From the NCBI GenBank assembly GCA_026129465.1, contig JAHCIA010000001.1, positions 381,964 to 445,963 of the forward strand: a stretch of DNA of 64,000 bases. The letters run 5' to 3'. Of this stretch, positions 1,910 through 20,844 are shown in pieces; position 1 is the first letter of the stretch; each line of letters starts with the position of its first letter. The position numbers and the translations under genes were made by a program. The stretch is from Flavobacteriales bacterium. Lineage in GTDB: Bacteria > Bacteroidota > Bacteroidia > Flavobacteriales_F > PHOS-HE28. Under the pieces are notes generated by a model. It was not told the DNA's origin. It searched no databases and saw nothing but the letters and a program-made list of their open reading frames with translations.

Positions 1910-2515
1910 TCACCGCCGCATCAACTTGAAGGCGATGCCCCGGCCCATCTTCTGGAAGATGGCCAGGTCGATCCACACCAGCGCGAAGCCCTCGAGGATG
2001 GGCACCTTGTCGTCGCCGCCCATGTCGTGGCATGCGGCGAAGCCCACGTCCTTCACCAGCGCGGCCACCGTCGCCTTGGCCCCGGCACTGCCACCGGCCA
2101 TGAACATATCGGCCACATCGTTACCGTAGTGCGGGTCGGCGAGGTTCTCCCAGCCGGTGCAGTTGAACACCTTCACCGCGTCGGCACCGGTGCTGCGCAG
2201 GGCCTCGAAGCCGGGCGCCGTGCCCAGCGGACCGGCCATGTTGGTGGCGTCCATCACCAGCTTGCCCTTGAGCGTGATGCCCAAGCTGGCGGCGAGGTCC
2301 ACCACCACCTTGCCGGGTGTGGCGACGAGGACGGCCTCGGCCGCTTCCACCGCCGCCGGGATCGACAGCACGCGCGCCCCGATGCCTTGGGCCCATTTCA
2401 GGATCTCGGGATCGCCCGGGTTGCGTGCGCCGATGAGGATGTCGTGCCCTGCGGTGTTCCATTTCTCCGCGAGCGTTCCGCCGATGTTGCCGGCGCCGAT
2501 GATGGTGATGGTCAT
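1910..2515 (-). CDS. NADP-dependent oxidoreductase, F420-reductase-like (NADPH_F420 fold)
   Basis: The 201-residue protein starts at ATG 2515 with MTITIIGAGNIGGTLAEKW, a Rossmann dinucleotide-binding motif (GxGxxG at residues 7-12) placed directly at the N-terminus; this decides the start over an in-frame codon at 2560. GARNPG after the second strand suggests NADP preference, as in the NADPH:F420 oxidoreductase and NAD-binding domain 2 family. VMDATNMAGPLG and VKVFNCTGWENL are typical of the small homologues found in bacteria without F420. The substrate cannot be predicted. The gene is followed by the cyclase relic and preceded by a palindromic repeat. Confidence 0.75.
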   Translation of the reverse strand: MTITIIGAGNIGGTLAEKWNTAGHDILIGARNPGDPEILKWAQGIGARVLSIPAAVEAAEAVLVATPGKVVVDLAASLGITLKGKLVMDATNMAGPLGTAPGFEALRSTGADAVKVFNCTGWENLADPHYGNDVADMFMAGGSAGAKATVAALVKDVGFAACHDMGGDDKVPILEGFALVWIDLAIFQKMGRGIAFKLMRR

Positions 2516-2558
2516 GTTTTGCAAGGGTTGCAGGGTATCGGTGAGATCTCGGTTGCGC

Positions 2559-2600
2559 ACCTGTAGCGTCGACCCATTGGGTCGACACTACGGGTGCATC
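2559..2600. repeat. palindromic intergenic repeat, GTCGACCCA type, copy 1
   Basis: The core GTCGACCCATTGGGTCGAC (2568-2586) is a perfect palindrome around a central base, and GTAG/CTAC arms extend it to about 29 bp. A near-identical copy with the same flanks (CCTGTAG on one side, CGGGTGC on the other) lies at 4445-4483. Both sit just upstream of minus-strand genes. It is a REP-like element. Confidence 0.8.
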
Positions 2601-2615
2601 CTATGCATGCATGGG

Positions 2616-3458
2616 TCATCGCCTTTCGTAGCTGATCCCGAAGGTCCACAACAGATCCTCGTAGGTGTTGCGCTGCTGCACCACGCTCTCGTAGCTCCAG
2701 TTCACGGCCTGGCGCAGCGCGAAACCCTTCTTCAGCGGGATGCTGAGCGCGGCTTCCACGTGGGCACGCAGGTTGTCCGCATCCGTGAGCGAGGGCTGCA
2801 CCCAGCCTTCGTACTGCAGGCGCAGGAGGCCTTCCATGATCCTGTGCTCGCCATAGAGCCTGCCGGTGATGCGCCAGGTCTCCAGCTCGGTGCTGGTGAG
2901 GTCGGTTCGTTCACGGAAGCTGGCGCTGCGGAAGGTGTTGGCCTCGTAAGTGCCGGTGGCGGAGAGCTTGAGCAGGTTGCCCGGCTTGCGCAGCAGCACA
3001 TAGGTGATGCCGGGCCCCACCTGCGTTCGGTGGTCGATGCCGCGCTGGTGGCTCCGCTGGTACCAAAGCATGAGGTAGGGATAGAGCTGAGCGTGCGGGT
3101 TCGCGTACACGAAGTTGCGCCAGATGCCCTCGCCCAGCGTCTGGCGGTAGAAGAAGGTGCCGTACTGGTAGTTGATCGCGCTCTTGACACCCCAGTGCGC
3201 ACGCACATGCGCCACCTCGCCGGTGCCCAGCAGCATGAACTGCTCGATGTTGCCGCGCATCCAGCTGCCCGTGGCGCTCACGCGATACTGCCAGCGCAGG
3301 GTGTCGGCTTCGCTGAGTTGGGCGTGGGTGCTGGAGATGGCGGTGAGGCTGATGATCGCGGTGAGCGCGAGAGTGTGAATGGTGAGAAAGTGAGAAAGTG
3401 AGAAAGCCCCCCACTTTCTCACTTCTTCACTTTCTCTCTTTCTCACCCTTGAATACAT
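2616..3458 (-). CDS. outer-membrane DUF481/DUF2490-like beta-barrel protein
   Basis: The protein has about 280 residues from ATG 3458. A hydrophobic stretch ending in AISSTHAQ is a likely signal peptide, followed by mature sequence starting LSEADTLRW. The rest alternates polar and aromatic residues with closely spaced strands (GSWMRGNIEQFMLLG, INYQYGTFFYRQ, RLYGEHRIMEGLLRLQYEG) and ends in FGISYERR, typical of a small barrel. The first ~25 residues are encoded by a GTGAGAAA-type inverted repeat (3382-3446), so the true start may differ or the repeat may have been inserted into the 5' end. No transport specificity can be inferred. Confidence 0.65.
   Translation of the reverse strand: MYSRVRKRESEEVRKWGAFSLSHFLTIHTLALTAIISLTAISSTHAQLSEADTLRWQYRVSATGSWMRGNIEQFMLLGTGEVAHVRAHWGVKSAINYQYGTFFYRQTLGEGIWRNFVYANPHAQLYPYLMLWYQRSHQRGIDHRTQVGPGITYVLLRKPGNLLKLSATGTYEANTFRSASFRERTDLTSTELETWRITGRLYGEHRIMEGLLRLQYEGWVQPSLTDADNLRAHVEAALSIPLKKGFALRQAVNWSYESVVQQRNTYEDLLWTFGISYERR
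3382..3446. repeat. imperfect inverted repeat of GTGAGAAA octamers
   Basis: Three tandem copies of GTGAGAAA-like units at 3382-3406 face an imperfect complement (CTTTCTCAC units) at 3414-3446. It overlaps the 5' end of the barrel-protein gene and has the same logic as the repeats at 1564, 5563 and 37441, although the word is different. Confidence 0.75.
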
Positions 3459-3459
3459 C

Positions 3460-4392
3460 TCATTCCAGGTATCCATCCACAGCCTGCAGCTTGGCGGGCA
3501 GGTCTTTTTCACCCAGCAACTCGCGCAGGTCGCGCTCAATGGTGTTGCACAGGGCGGTGAGCGGCACGTCGGTGATGCGGCCCTCGAAGGGGTCCTCGTT
3601 CACCTCGCCCACCTTGCCGATGACGGCGAAGACGAAGCTGATGAGGAGGGCCAGCGGCAGCACCATCCAGCCGATGCCCATCTTTTCCAGGTCGGCCACC
3701 AGGCAGAAGGGCAGCAGCACGATGAAGACCTGCAGGAAGAGCCGTGTGAAGTAGTGGTACTGGCGGAGCAATGGGGTGTTCTTGATGCGCTCGCAGCCGC
3801 CCTGGTGATTGGCCAGCGCCAGCAGCTGTCCTTCCATCTGGAAGCTGTCGAAGCCGCCGAGCGTGCCATCGGCCATGGCCTGGTAGATGCGGTGGCCCAG
3901 CTGCTGCATCACGAGGTTGGGTTTGTTGCTGGCCTTCAGCAACTCGTCATATTCCGCCGGCGGCAGCAGCGGGGCGAACTCGGGCCACTGCTGCTGGCCG
4001 CGCAGGTGCAATCGCAGGGCGTGCACCCAGGCGATCACCTTGTGCACCATCTCGCGCTTGAAGGCCTCGCTGCGGGCGCGGTCGTAGTTGGGCTGGTGGG
4101 CGTGGCTGTCGGCGAAGGTGATGATGAGCCGCGCCAGCACCCGCGTGCTGTTGACGATGCCGCCCCAGAGCGTGCGCGCCTCCCACCAGCGGCCGTAGGC
4201 GCTGTTGTTGCGGAAGCCGATGAAGATGGCCAGCGCGCTGCCGAGCGTGGCCGCGATGCTGAATGGCAGGGCCACCAGCGGCTCCCAGCGGTGCAGCAGG
4301 TAGGCCGCCACGGCGGCGACCAGCGCCAGCAGCAGCTCACTGCGCACGTAGCGCAGCACCTTCAACGGGTCGAAGCGGCGTTTGATGATCAT
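3460..4392 (-). CDS. bestrophin-family chloride/anion channel protein
   Basis: The 310-residue protein starts MIIKRRFDPLKVLRYVRSEL at ATG 4392. It shows the bacterial bestrophin (YneE/RFP-TM) layout: an N-terminal transmembrane pair (LLALVAAVAAYLL; PFSIAATLGSALAIFIGF), the signature FRNNSAYGRWWEARTLWGG, a helical cytoplasmic middle, and a second hydrophobic pair (FLQVFIVLLPFCLV; GWMVLPLALLISFVFAVIG). The segment EDPFEGRITDVPLTALCNTI is also family-typical. Such proteins form pentameric inner-membrane ion channels. It ends immediately before the barrel-protein start, so the two may be cotranscribed. Confidence 0.88.
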   Translation of the reverse strand: MIIKRRFDPLKVLRYVRSELLLALVAAVAAYLLHRWEPLVALPFSIAATLGSALAIFIGFRNNSAYGRWWEARTLWGGIVNSTRVLARLIITFADSHAHQPNYDRARSEAFKREMVHKVIAWVHALRLHLRGQQQWPEFAPLLPPAEYDELLKASNKPNLVMQQLGHRIYQAMADGTLGGFDSFQMEGQLLALANHQGGCERIKNTPLLRQYHYFTRLFLQVFIVLLPFCLVADLEKMGIGWMVLPLALLISFVFAVIGKVGEVNEDPFEGRITDVPLTALCNTIERDLRELLGEKDLPAKLQAVDGYLE

Positions 4393-4444
4393 GGTGGGGT
4401 GGAATGCATCGTTCGCGATTCTGCACCAACGGTGATCGATCGCA

Positions 4445-4483
4445 CCTGTAGAGTCGACCCACTGGGTCGACACTGCGGGTGCC
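4445..4483. repeat. palindromic intergenic repeat, GTCGACCCA type, copy 2
   Basis: The core GTCGACCCACTGGGTCGAC is at 4453-4471, with the same CCTGTAG and CGGGTGC flanks as the copy at 2559-2600. It lies between the bestrophin gene and the DJ-1/PfpI gene. Confidence 0.8.
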
Positions 4484-4500
4484 TCGATCCAGGTTGTGCG

Positions 4501-5247
4501 TTACGCCCCCAGCGCCTCGATCACCATTTTGGCGGTGGCTGCGCCGCTGAACTGCTGCTGGCCGGTGATCAGGCGGCCGTCGCGCACGGCGAAGGCCTTG
4601 AACAGGCCGCCGGTGATGAAGTTGGTGTTGGGCAGCTTCTTCGCCTCGGTCTCGATCCAGAAGGGCTGGATGCGCTGGCCCACGAAATTGTCCGCGAACT
4701 GCTCCTCGGCATCAGCGAAGCCCGTCCAGGTCCTGCCGTCAACGAGCAGTTTGCCATCGGCGGTCTTGGCCTTCAGCAGCACGCAGGTGGCGTGGCACAC
4801 GATGGCCACCACCTTCTTCGCCTCGTGGAAGTCCACCACGAGCTTGTGCAGCGGCGCGTTGTCGATGAAGGTGTACATGGGGCTCTGGCCGCCGGTGAGG
4901 AAGACGGCATCGTAGTCGGCCACCTGGATCGCGCTCATGGGCCTGGTGTTCGTGATGAGCTCGGCATGCTTGGGGCTTTTCTTGAAGCCGAGGCTGAGGA
5001 TGTCGGCCGCGCTGTAGCCGCTGGCGTCCTCGGGGTCGCTGAAACCGTCGGCCATCAGGTCGCCGCCGTCGGGGCTGTAGATGTCCACCTGGTAGCCCTT
5101 CTCCACGAACTCCCAGTAGGGGTGGGTGAGCTCGGCCCACCAGAAGCCGATGGGCCAGCCGGTCTGCTTGCTGGTGGAAGGGTTGGCGGCGATGAGGGCG
5201 ATGCGCTTGGGCTTCGCGGGGTCGATGAGGTTGAGTGCTGCGCTCAT
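4501..5247 (-). CDS. DJ-1/PfpI-family class I glutamine-amidotransferase-like protein
   Basis: The 248-residue cytoplasmic protein has the DJ-1/PfpI fold in the Hsp31/glyoxalase III branch. KRIALIAANPST forms the first strand, WWAELTHPYWEF carries the family glutamate (about Glu39), YDAVFLTGGQSPM the glycine-rich turn, and VVAIVCHATCVLL the nucleophile elbow with Cys151. Family members act as glyoxalases, protein repair factors or chaperones; which applies here cannot be said. It is divergent from an HxlR regulator at 5603, a common pairing, and a candidate HxlR operator lies between them. Confidence 0.85.
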   Translation of the reverse strand: MSAALNLIDPAKPKRIALIAANPSTSKQTGWPIGFWWAELTHPYWEFVEKGYQVDIYSPDGGDLMADGFSDPEDASGYSAADILSLGFKKSPKHAELITNTRPMSAIQVADYDAVFLTGGQSPMYTFIDNAPLHKLVVDFHEAKKVVAIVCHATCVLLKAKTADGKLLVDGRTWTGFADAEEQFADNFVGQRIQPFWIETEAKKLPNTNFITGGLFKAFAVRDGRLITGQQQFSGAATAKMVIEALGA

Positions 5248-5334
5248 GGTTGAAGTTGTGGGGTTGCTCTAGTTGCGGCTGCAAACCTTCGGCAGGTACA
5301 GGCCCTTTCCGCGGGTAGCGCGCATTGGTGAGGT

Positions 5335-5352
5335 ACTCACGTTTTGGTAAGC
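5335..5352. promoter_or_regulatory. candidate HxlR operator
   Basis: ACTCAC-GTTTTG-GTAAGC is an imperfect inverted repeat of the ACTTAC-N6-GTAAGT type expected for HxlR/YodB-like dimers. It lies between the divergent DJ-1 and hxlR genes. The match is by eye and there is no second copy to compare. Confidence 0.4.
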
Positions 5353-5562
5353 ATGCGCCGATCTGGGGGGTGCGGCGATCTTTGCATCCGCCAGGGATGG
5401 GAGCGGCAGCTCCCGACGGGCAAGGCCCAGCGGATGCCGCAGCGAGGAGGCGACCAGCGGAAGCCCCCGCAGCGCGAGCAGCCGCAGGCCGGCCCGGCGG
5501 GACTATAGCGGACAGCCCGCAGGCGGCCCAACATTGAAAAGACACAACCAAGATGCTGGGGC

Positions 5563-5600
5563 GATCATCCGATCATCTCATCATCTGATCATCCGATCGC
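5563..5600. repeat. GATCATCC octamer tandem repeat
   Basis: About four to five degenerate copies of GATCATC(C/T) run up to three bases before the hxlR start codon at 5603. It resembles the other short-word repeats in the window. Confidence 0.7.
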
Positions 5601-5602
5601 CC

Positions 5603-5968
5603 ATGCCCGACTTCACCCACGACGGCCACGTGTACTACAACCCCTTCGAGTTCGCCATGGCCTTCATCGGCGGCACGTGGAAGGCGCCCGTGCTGTACCG
5701 GTTGAAGAAGGGCAAGCAGCGCTACAGCGAGCTGAAGAAGAGCATGCAGCACATCAGCGACCGGCAGCTGGCGGCCACCTTGCGCGAACTGGAGAAGCAC
5801 GGCCTGGTGACGCGCACGGTATACCCCGAGGTACCGCCGCGCACGGAGTACGCGCTGACGAAGCGCGGCGAGCGTGCGATCCCGGTGATCGAGACGCTGC
5901 GGCAGTACGGCATCGCGCTGATGAAGGACACAGGGATCGAGAGCGAATTCTATCTGGGGAAGAAGTGA
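5603..5968 (+). CDS. HxlR-family transcriptional regulator
   Basis: The 121-residue winged-helix protein starts at ATG 5603 (MPDFTHDGHVYYNPFEF), just after the octamer repeat; the upstream in-frame extension is repeat sequence. FIGGTWKAPVLYRLKKGKQR, ELKKSMQHISDRQLAATLRE and GLVTRTVYPEVPPRTEYALT are the conserved HxlR helices and wing. The usual N-terminal cysteine of CPV is replaced (YYNPFEF), so it would not sense by that thiol. It probably controls the divergent DJ-1/PfpI gene. Confidence 0.88.
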   Translation: MPDFTHDGHVYYNPFEFAMAFIGGTWKAPVLYRLKKGKQRYSELKKSMQHISDRQLAATLRELEKHGLVTRTVYPEVPPRTEYALTKRGERAIPVIETLRQYGIALMKDTGIESEFYLGKK

Positions 5969-5989
5969 AGCACCGGTACGATGCCCGGA

Positions 5990-6325
5990 TCACGTGGCAC
6001 ATGGACCGCCCATGTCCTCCAGCCCCCATGCGCTCATGGCGTCCACCACGGGCAGCAGGCTCTCGCCCTTGGGGGTGATGTGGTACTCCACGCGCGGCGG
6101 GATCTCCGCATGGATGGTGCGCGACAGGATGCCGTCCCGTTCCAGTTCGCGCAGTTGTGTGGTGAGCATCTGCTTGCTGATGCCATCGATGGCGCGTTGA
6201 AGGGCGCCGAACCGGTTGCAGCCCTTGCGCACCAGGAAGAGGATCACCGGCTTCCATTTGCCGCCGATGAAGCGCAGGGTGTGCGTCACCGGGCATTGCG
6301 CAGGGCCCACCGGGGGATCGTTCAT
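5990..6325 (-). CDS. HxlR-family transcriptional regulator
   Basis: The 111-residue protein from ATG 6325 has the canonical start CPVTHTLRFIGGKWKPVILF with the conserved cysteine, then QRAIDGISKQMLTTQLRELE and LSRTIHAEIPPRVEYHITPK. A longer form from ATG 6364 is possible (13 more residues). It is convergent with the other HxlR gene and divergent from the quinone oxidoreductase at 6454, its likely target; HxlR regulators next to such oxidoreductases often sense quinones, diamide or aldehydes. Confidence 0.88.
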   Translation of the reverse strand: MNDPPVGPAQCPVTHTLRFIGGKWKPVILFLVRKGCNRFGALQRAIDGISKQMLTTQLRELERDGILSRTIHAEIPPRVEYHITPKGESLLPVVDAMSAWGLEDMGGPCAT

Positions 6326-6453
6326 AACCAGCGCTGTGCGGCGCTCGACCACTGTTGACGGCATGACTCAGGAATTTGTGACTATGGCCGAAAAGCCTGA
6401 CTACTTGCGGGATGCAGAGCAAGGTAGGAGTTTCGGGCCCGAAGCAACGCGCC

Positions 6454-7404
6454 ATGAAAGCACTCCTTTACGACAAATACGGCGGTCCTGAGGTGATGTA
6501 CTGGGGCGACCGCCCCGATCCTGTGCCCGGTGCCGGACAGGTGACCGTGCGCGTGGAAGCGGCATCCATCAATCCGGTGGACATGAAGGTGCGGCAGGGC
6601 GCCATGCGGATCATCACCGGCGGGCGCATGCCGCGCGGCATGGGCTGCGATGTGGCGGGACGGGTGGAGCGGATCGGTGCAGGGGTGACCGGTATGAAGC
6701 CCGGCGATGCGGTTTTCGGATATGCGGGCTTCAAGGCGAGCAACACCTTCGCGGAGCTCGCCCTGTTGCCCGCGGATCTCGTGGTGCACAAGCCGGATGC
6801 GATCCCGTTCGCCGAAGCGGCATGCCTGCCACAGGCCGGCGTGGCGGCCTTGCGGGCACTGAGGGAGAAAGCGGACCTGAAAGCGGGCCAGCAGGTGCTC
6901 GTGGTGGGCTGCACAGGGGGCGTGGGCCAATTCGTGGTGATGGTGGCGAAGGCCTTGGGCGCTCGGGTGTGGGGCGTGTGCGGTGGCGATCAGTCCAGCG
7001 CCGCGCGCGCCTTGGGCTGCGACGCGGTGATCGACCACCGCAAGCAGGACCTGGCCACACTGGATGCGCGGTTCCATGTGGTCTTCGACACGCCAGGTGC
7101 GCTCGGCTTCGCCAAGGCGGCGAAGCCACTCCTGCCTCGTGGCCATTTCCTCGACCTGAACGCGAAGCCGCAGGCCATGCTCACCGCCTGGGCCGCGAAC
7201 GCTTTGCGTGCGCGCAAGCACCATCCGCTCATCACCAAGGTGCGGCGCGAGGATCTGCAAGCCCTGGCCAGGCTGGCAGCGGACGGCAAGTTGCGGCCGT
7301 TGATCGGGCGCACGGCCCCCTTGCACGAGGGCCCGGCGGTGATCGCCGCCATGGAGCGCAGGGAGCGGACGGTGGGGAAGACGGTGCTGGTGGGGAAGGT
7401 ATAG
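6454..7404 (+). CDS. zinc-independent quinone oxidoreductase / NAD(P)-dependent alcohol dehydrogenase (MDR family)
   Basis: The 316-residue protein belongs to the medium-chain dehydrogenase/reductase superfamily, quinone oxidoreductase branch. It shows MKALLYDKYGGPEVM at the start, ASINPVDMKVRQG, GCDVAGRVERIGAGVTGMKPGD, and the Rossmann site VLVVGCTGGVGQFVVMVAK. There are no structural zinc cysteines. ATG 6454 gives the family-typical N-terminus; an upstream in-frame ATG at 6412 adds atypical residues. It likely reduces quinones or reactive carbonyls with NADPH and is divergent from an HxlR regulator. Confidence 0.87.
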   Translation: MKALLYDKYGGPEVMYWGDRPDPVPGAGQVTVRVEAASINPVDMKVRQGAMRIITGGRMPRGMGCDVAGRVERIGAGVTGMKPGDAVFGYAGFKASNTFAELALLPADLVVHKPDAIPFAEAACLPQAGVAALRALREKADLKAGQQVLVVGCTGGVGQFVVMVAKALGARVWGVCGGDQSSAARALGCDAVIDHRKQDLATLDARFHVVFDTPGALGFAKAAKPLLPRGHFLDLNAKPQAMLTAWAANALRARKHHPLITKVRREDLQALARLAADGKLRPLIGRTAPLHEGPAVIAAMERRERTVGKTVLVGKV

Positions 7405-20101: not shown

Positions 20102-20194
<93 letters not shown>

Positions 20195-20200
20195 ACGATA

Positions 20201-20227
20201 AGCCTGGCCACGTGGTGGCCGGGCTTT
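20201..20227 (+). terminator. intrinsic terminator after tRNA-Ser
   Basis: GCCTGGCCAC and GTGGCCGGGC pair to form a strong stem followed by TTTTT, starting 8 nt after the encoded CCA. Confidence 0.8.
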
Positions 20228-20240
20228 TTCATGCGCGGAC

Positions 20241-20720
20241 CGAGCCAAGCTTGCTTGCGCGAGGGCCGCGCATGAAAAAGCCAGGGAGCGAAGCGATCAG
20301 GGCTTTCGTTGATGCCTCCCCCTTCGGGATAGCCCGTCTTCGGGCCATCCCATTCTCGTCCGAGCCAAGCTTGCTTGCGCGAGGGCCGCGCATGAAAAAG
20401 CCAGGGAGCGAAGCGATCAGGGCTTTCGTTGATGCCTCCCCCTTGGGGATAGCCCGTCTTCGGGCCATCCCATCCTCGTCCGAGCCAAGCTTGCTTGCGC
20501 GAGGGCCGCGCATGAAAAAGCCAGGGAGCGAAGCGATCAGGGCTTTCGTTGATGCCTCCCCCTTGGGGATAGCCCGTCTTCGGGCCATCCCATCCTCGTC
20601 CGAGCCAAGCTTGCTTGCGCGAGGGCCGCGCATGAAAAAGCCAGGGAGCGAAGCGATCAGGGCTTTCGTTGATGCCTCCCCCTTCGGGTTGGCCCGTCCT
20701 CGGGCGCTCCCAACTTCATC
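20241..20720. repeat. four-copy 120-bp tandem array between two tRNA genes
   Basis: Units begin at 20241, 20361, 20481 and 20601, exactly 120 bp apart, each opening CGAGCCAAGCTTGCTTGCGC. The first three differ at a few positions; the fourth diverges in its last ~30 bp. Each unit contains a perfect hairpin GGGATAGCCCG-TCTT-CGGGCCATCCC (or a close variant) and the segment CCGCGCATGAAAAAGCC, which is the exact complement of GGCTTTTTCATGCGCGG at the foot of the tRNA-Ser terminator. Both strands stay open for translation only because 120 is a multiple of three. I see no gene in it. Confidence 0.9.
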
Positions 20721-20763
20721 GTCGGATGAACGCCCTTTTCCCCGTTCTTTGCCGCCCATTGTT

Positions 20764-20838
20764 CGGGGTGTAGCGCAGTCCGGTTAGCGTACCTGCTTTG
20801 GGAGCAGGGGGTCGCAGGTTCGAATCCTGCCACCCCGA
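20764..20838 (+). tRNA. tRNA-Pro (anticodon TGG)
   Basis: CGGGGTG pairs with CACCCCG, the anticodon stem CCTGC/GCAGG encloses TTTGGGA (anticodon TGG), and the T loop is GTTCGAATC. The 3' CCA is not encoded. Length 75 nt. Confidence 0.96.
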
Positions 20839-20844
20839 CGAACG

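Follow-up and report, generated by a model that had tools for sequence, protein, structure and literature searches.

Tandem non-coding repeats behind a tRNA gene are known from E. coli, where the unit of the rtT or tyrT distal repeats (RF00391) extends into the tRNA and takes in its final ∼19 nt. Enzymes that act on tRNA genes have been described separately: the phage GIY-YIG endonuclease SegB cuts inside tRNA genes at a preferred motif, RAWTSGAAC, and causes tandem amplification (PMC13096335). This motif is the reverse complement of the T-loop consensus.

Here we analyse an array of four 120-bp repeats in the window, by which we mean the whole 64 000-nucleotide stretch of DNA under study. We consider it probable, at roughly 60%, that the array arose by amplification of a non-coding, mobile-like element whose target, in Bacteroidota, is the 3' end of genes for tRNA and tmRNA. 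An Rfam search returned only tRNA above the gathering score, with no known RNA family for the unit and no match to the rtT family, and a literature search, outside which most subscription papers lay, found no description of the element. Neither Rfam nor the literature searched seems to describe the family.

Anatomy of the array

A sequence-only reading of the window had pointed to four tandem repeats between tRNA-Ser and tRNA-Pro, and these are real. TRF reported a single array in the window (20240–20712; period 120, 97% matches, 0% indels), and the units are 93–100% identical to one another. The array is preceded by tRNA-Ser(GCU) (20102–20194, + strand; found by ARAGORN and as Rfam RF00005), the 3' end of which is the presumed insertion site, and followed by tRNA-Pro(UGG) (20764–20839). 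Unit 1 (20241–20360), delimited by TRF and by comparison of units, agrees with unit 2 (20361–20480) at 118 of 120 positions; unit 3 (20481–20600) is identical to unit 2 and so shares the two differences from unit 1. Unit 4 (20601–20720) matches units 2 and 3 at 111 of 120 positions, and all nine differences fall within its last third. These units and the features described below are all on the + strand. Distinguishing changes between units, their position in a 3.86-Mb contig and the presence of arrays in other species make an assembly artefact unlikely.

Immediately behind tRNA-Ser(GCU), sequence and fold identify an intrinsic terminator with a stem and T-run (20200–20229). The 5' arm of a long palindrome, GGCTTTTTCATGCGCGG (20222–20238; sequence, alignment and fold), is followed by an inner hairpin, CCGAGCCAAGCTTGCTTGCGCGAGG (20240–20264), which is conserved as judged by alignment, covariation and covariance-model matches, and by a 3' arm, CCGCGCATGAAAAAGCC (20266–20282), which is complementary to the 5' arm and present in all four units. 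Terminator arm, inner hairpin (GAGCCAAGC-n-GCTTGaGCGAG) and complementary arm together form one long palindrome; a covariance-model match of 69.4 bits (20219–20286) spans the start of unit 1, and the stretch of 166 nt that follows the tRNA has a fold energy of −88.3 kcal/mol (z = −5.7 relative to shuffled sequences). In the window a single copy of the 17-nt foot GGCTTTTTCATGCGCGG, at 20222–20238, is matched by four copies of its exact complement; the complement of the terminator foot had been noticed in each unit before, and its pairing proves to be real and conserved. At its right end the element has a hairpin-bearing pseudo T-arm, GGGATAGCCCGTCTTCGGGCCATCCC (20326–20351), and behind it a decayed tRNA 3' tail, recognized from sequence and from intact counterparts in 31 loci.

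The foot had been taken as part of the terminator of tRNA-Ser itself. In two loci compared from a distant genus (L124 and L125), the terminator of the unit and the native terminator are different sequences, the native one lying beyond the last unit. For this reason we think that the terminator at 20200–20229 probably belongs to the element, as its left part, and is not the native tRNA-Ser terminator. The window element would then carry its own terminator together with a decayed copy of the 3' tail of the tRNA.

Two open frames run through the array, of 217 aa (20134–20787, + strand) and 176 aa (20229–20759, − strand), because a period of 120 is a multiple of 3. Periods of other arrays include 106, 112, 122, 125, 127, 128 and 169, and a protein-coding repeat was rejected.

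Genomic address and conservation of the fold

In the window's genome the full unit is confined to this array. When the 380 nt downstream of all 43 tRNAs were read, six proved to have a related long hairpin there: Ser(GCU, GGA, CGA, UGA), Leu(GAG) and Pro(CGG). At these six loci the outer arms are tRNA-specific, yet complementary at each, and they enclose a conserved inner hairpin, GAGCCAAGC..GCTTGgGCGAG. Relatives within the genus carry repeats of ∼70–86% identity behind tRNAs, many of them in tandem, with periods of 106–177. The distance from the tRNA to the start of the inner hairpin is nearly constant in first copies, at ∼43–58 nt. At several loci, including L028, L034, L082 and L124, the tandem units behind the tRNA include the tRNA 3' end, which is degenerate in the window. 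A second kind of tRNA-derived array exists within the genus: behind tRNA-Pro(UGG), L158 and L172 have tandem pseudo-tRNA-Pro copies in which a TCCCGCCC..GGGCGGGA hairpin replaces the anticodon arm and the T-loop is truncated. At L055 (4837–4990) the 3' end of tRNA-Gly(CCC) is copied ∼85 bp downstream, and the duplicate has a GCGGGCCCGC..CAGG motif that is the same as that behind tRNA-Leu(CAA).

An exact 20-base pattern searched over 84,980 genomes matched 17 stretches, some from low-GC MAGs labelled Sphingobacteriaceae and Cyclobacteriaceae. Where the contig includes an upstream tRNA, the first copy begins 43–53 nt after it and on the same strand; the other matches are at the edge of a contig or represent the second copy in an array. 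One exact core match, behind tRNA-Pro(CGG), is on a contig labelled Micavibrio (Alphaproteobacteria; L094) and may be contamination. A covariance model built from 41 first copies found matches in 61 of the 395 genomes searched in the class, which represent 33 of 196 genera and ∼20 families, and a search of the phylum added three genomes of another class. The pattern was absent from the viral contigs searched and a plasmid search gave no match to the element; a viral or plasmid origin was rejected.

All 76 model loci examined follow a tRNA or tmRNA 3' end, which is intact in 71 and a displaced fragment in five. Among the 30 top loci, 24 lie directly behind a tRNA, two behind tmRNA and four behind a displaced tRNA or tmRNA 3' fragment. 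Of the 36 further loci, none of them in the model, 35 begin 18–35 nt downstream of a tRNA or tmRNA and the last follows a tRNA-Ser fragment; the loci from the phylum search are behind a tRNA or tmRNA in 10 of 10 cases. Host genes are tRNAs for Ser, Leu, Pro, Arg, Val, Cys, Gln, Asp, Met and Lys, and tmRNA. The importance given to tRNA adjacency by the sequence-only reading was thus well placed, and other tRNAs also have the unit beside them; a lack of such recurrence would have told against that reading.

In an alignment that was not fitted to structure, 12 of 14 pairs have double-sided changes, and none of 500 shuffles reached the observed covariation. Arms score 11.5 when paired with their own partner and 4.1 when swapped between loci; relatedness of the sequences and transcription-linked mutation could inflate both the covariation and the pairing figures. 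On the tRNA-sense strand G.U wobbles far outnumber A.C (84 versus 30), indicating that this strand is constrained, an excess that could come partly from a transcription-linked C-to-T bias. Strand-specific covariation of this kind makes the structured RNA suggested earlier plausible.

Occupancy of orthologous sites and the GIY-YIG units

The orthologous tRNA-Ser(GCU) is empty, with a terminator only, in L158 and L170 (G333 and G016), whereas in G008 it is followed by one unit, a displaced tail and a second terminator. At the same tRNA four species have an A-type unit and one, G023, a B-type array. In L168 (G013) an A unit comes first, followed by an intact 3' tail of the tRNA and then by B; A is 88–91% identical to the A loci and B 91% identical to L167. 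Since B in G013 begins exactly where it begins behind the tRNA in G023, A was inserted between the tRNA and an older B. In the distant genus, a unit with a 91-aa GIY-YIG gene lies between tRNA-Met and the palindromic unit in L125, whereas in L124 the palindromic unit adjoins an identical tRNA-Met. The element is thus present or absent at orthologous sites with precise ends, as in a MITE-like element, and from these comparisons the order of insertion appears cassette-like, with the newest copy next to the tRNA. In G010 and G021 (L159 and L160) tRNA-Ser(GCU) is followed by a frame that by eye resembles a tyrosine recombinase, apparently the start of an island.

A copy of the 3' tail of the element's own tRNA (at most 3 mismatches in 15) ends 31 of 85 evaluable elements, at +141 to +186, as compared with 56 of 1762 for control tails of other isotypes; the remaining 54 have a degenerate copy or none. 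All 31 copies have lost the T-loop TTCRA, in place of which there is a hairpin or other insert, and the 3' strand of the T-stem is retained.

A right end of the same kind occurs in a set of units with small GIY-YIG genes. Such genes lie some 40–70 bp behind tRNA-Val, Met, Leu and Ala, and in L128, L129, L131 and L140 the gene is followed by a hairpin, a tRNA tail copy and another terminator. Some of them form arrays: in L243 (G139:C9:903500-912500) ten near-identical 457-bp tandem units, each with one 95-aa GIY-YIG gene, extend from inside the tRNA-Met 3' end (2442–7083), and a tRNA-Leu has three 345-bp units. In L134, from the window's genome, and in L245 the gene is on the 5' side of the tRNA and the hairpin in a copied 5' half. 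At L134 (G000:C1:3003892-3007089; 1450–1900) the gene lies directly upstream of tRNA-Leu(CAA), preceded by a copied tRNA 5' half with two CCTGCC..GGCAGG hairpins, and the tRNA 3' end is also copied downstream. Only two of the 30 top-scoring GIY-YIG loci of the class adjoin tRNAs, and a universal link between the two is not supported. Within the GIY-YIG units the covariance model found no convincing palindrome, only one marginal match (E = 0.06); what these units share with the palindromic ones is the architecture.

The palindromic unit contains no gene and so encodes no GIY-YIG nuclease. Because SegB cuts tRNA genes, has a motif complementary to the T-loop and causes tandem amplification, we regard a GIY-YIG nuclease acting in trans as the leading candidate for the mobilizing agent. 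G056 and G075 are rich in palindromic units (six to seven copies), with no short GIY-YIG gene found in either, and for this reason the agent may be another enzyme or may be long gone.

Proposed mechanism, alternatives and known systems

We envisage a non-coding element of ∼120–180 bp. In a full unit a tRNA 3' tail would be followed by the element's own terminator, by a long palindrome around a conserved inner hairpin, by a pseudo T-arm (the T-stem kept, the T-loop exchanged for a hairpin or insert) and by a second tail copy. The element would insert at the T-loop of a tRNA or tmRNA gene by a break-and-repair route. The incoming copy would restore a working tRNA with a terminator and the displaced tail would lose its T-loop, so that neither half would be a target again. 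This is the logic of a homing endonuclease, with a small GIY-YIG nuclease in trans as the most likely agent. If the element is actively mobile, new insertions next to the tRNA would move older ones further away from it, in the downstream direction. The later step in the window would be the multiplication of an internal 120-bp segment, which unequal exchange or slippage would have brought to four copies. Growth of the array from terminator sequence by duplication, as suggested earlier, thus holds in part: the multiplication of the internal segment is the only step that is local duplication, and occurrence of the family behind many tRNAs argues against a de novo origin from this one terminator.

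The strict address behind tRNA and tmRNA genes, the strand-specific conservation of the fold with its covariation, and the convergent, terminator-like arms would also suit a vertically inherited cis-acting RNA, either a structured 3' trailer or a fail-safe bidirectional terminator, that serves tRNA and tmRNA 3' processing or blocks read-through and has incidental tandem copies. We think this unlikely, given a patchy distribution (only six of 43 tRNAs in the window's genome, 61 of 395 genomes), host tRNAs that differ between species, empty and double-filled sites, and flanking copies of the own-tRNA tail that a trailer would not need. Those copies could instead be attL and attR scars, if the units were remnants or satellites of tyrosine-integrase elements and were mobilized by the integrase in trans. 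The classic attB segment is a direct repeat of the tRNA 3' end that begins at the T-loop, the same tRNA-Ser(GCU) has island-like genes in G010 and G021, and displaced attR-like ends precede the units in L110 and L115. However, att scars normally keep the T-loop, which all 31 tail copies have lost; the layout is common to the small GIY-YIG units, no unit encodes an integrase, and islands occur at only some of the same tRNAs. An origin from integrase elements is accordingly improbable.

Plain local tandem duplication of tRNA-flanking DNA, with template switching sharpening the palindromes and no element involved, would account for the near-identity of the window units and for the L028 unit, whose start lies within the 3' end of the tRNA; covariation between arms can itself result from template switching. 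It is contradicted by the homologous core behind unrelated tRNAs, with the inner hairpin recurring behind different tRNAs in ∼20 families and another class, and by the position of A in front of B in L168; we give it very little credence.

Returning to the mobile-like element, we propose more tentatively, at somewhat under even odds, that Bacteroidota harbour a hitherto unrecognized class of mini-elements for tRNA and tmRNA tails, GIY-YIG-encoding or gene-less and palindromic, that share T-loop insertion, tRNA repair, cassette stacking with the latest arrival nearest the tRNA, and recognition of a conserved sense-strand hairpin. If so, a class of tRNA-linked tandem repeats would be explained, as would the many small GIY-YIG genes beside tRNAs in these bacteria, T-loop homing would extend from phages to bacterial chromosomes, and there would be a compact system in which to study the way a selfish element enters essential genes and leaves them unharmed.

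Among known systems, the element resembles rtT in its tandem non-coding repeats behind a tRNA and its incidental open frame, and in units that include the tRNA end, as in L028 and L034. It differs from rtT in having no Rfam match, a conserved palindrome with an inner hairpin, and hosts that include many tRNAs and tmRNA in many families. With free-standing GIY-YIG homing endonucleases of the SegB type (PMC13096335) it shares the link to tRNAs, a T-loop-like motif and tandem segmental amplification; in contrast, the palindromic unit is gene-less, chromosomal and from Bacteroidota, and would be acted on in trans. Like MITEs and REP or BIME palindromes it is short, non-coding, palindromic, dispersed and presumably mobilized in trans, but it has a single genomic address, tRNA and tmRNA 3' ends, with locus-specific arms and flanks that are tRNA tail copies rather than ordinary target duplications. 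Finally, tRNA-integrated islands and other tyrosine-integrase elements likewise use and restore a tRNA 3' end, whereas the unit described here is far smaller, has no integrase and leaves a displaced tail in which the T-loop is destroyed.
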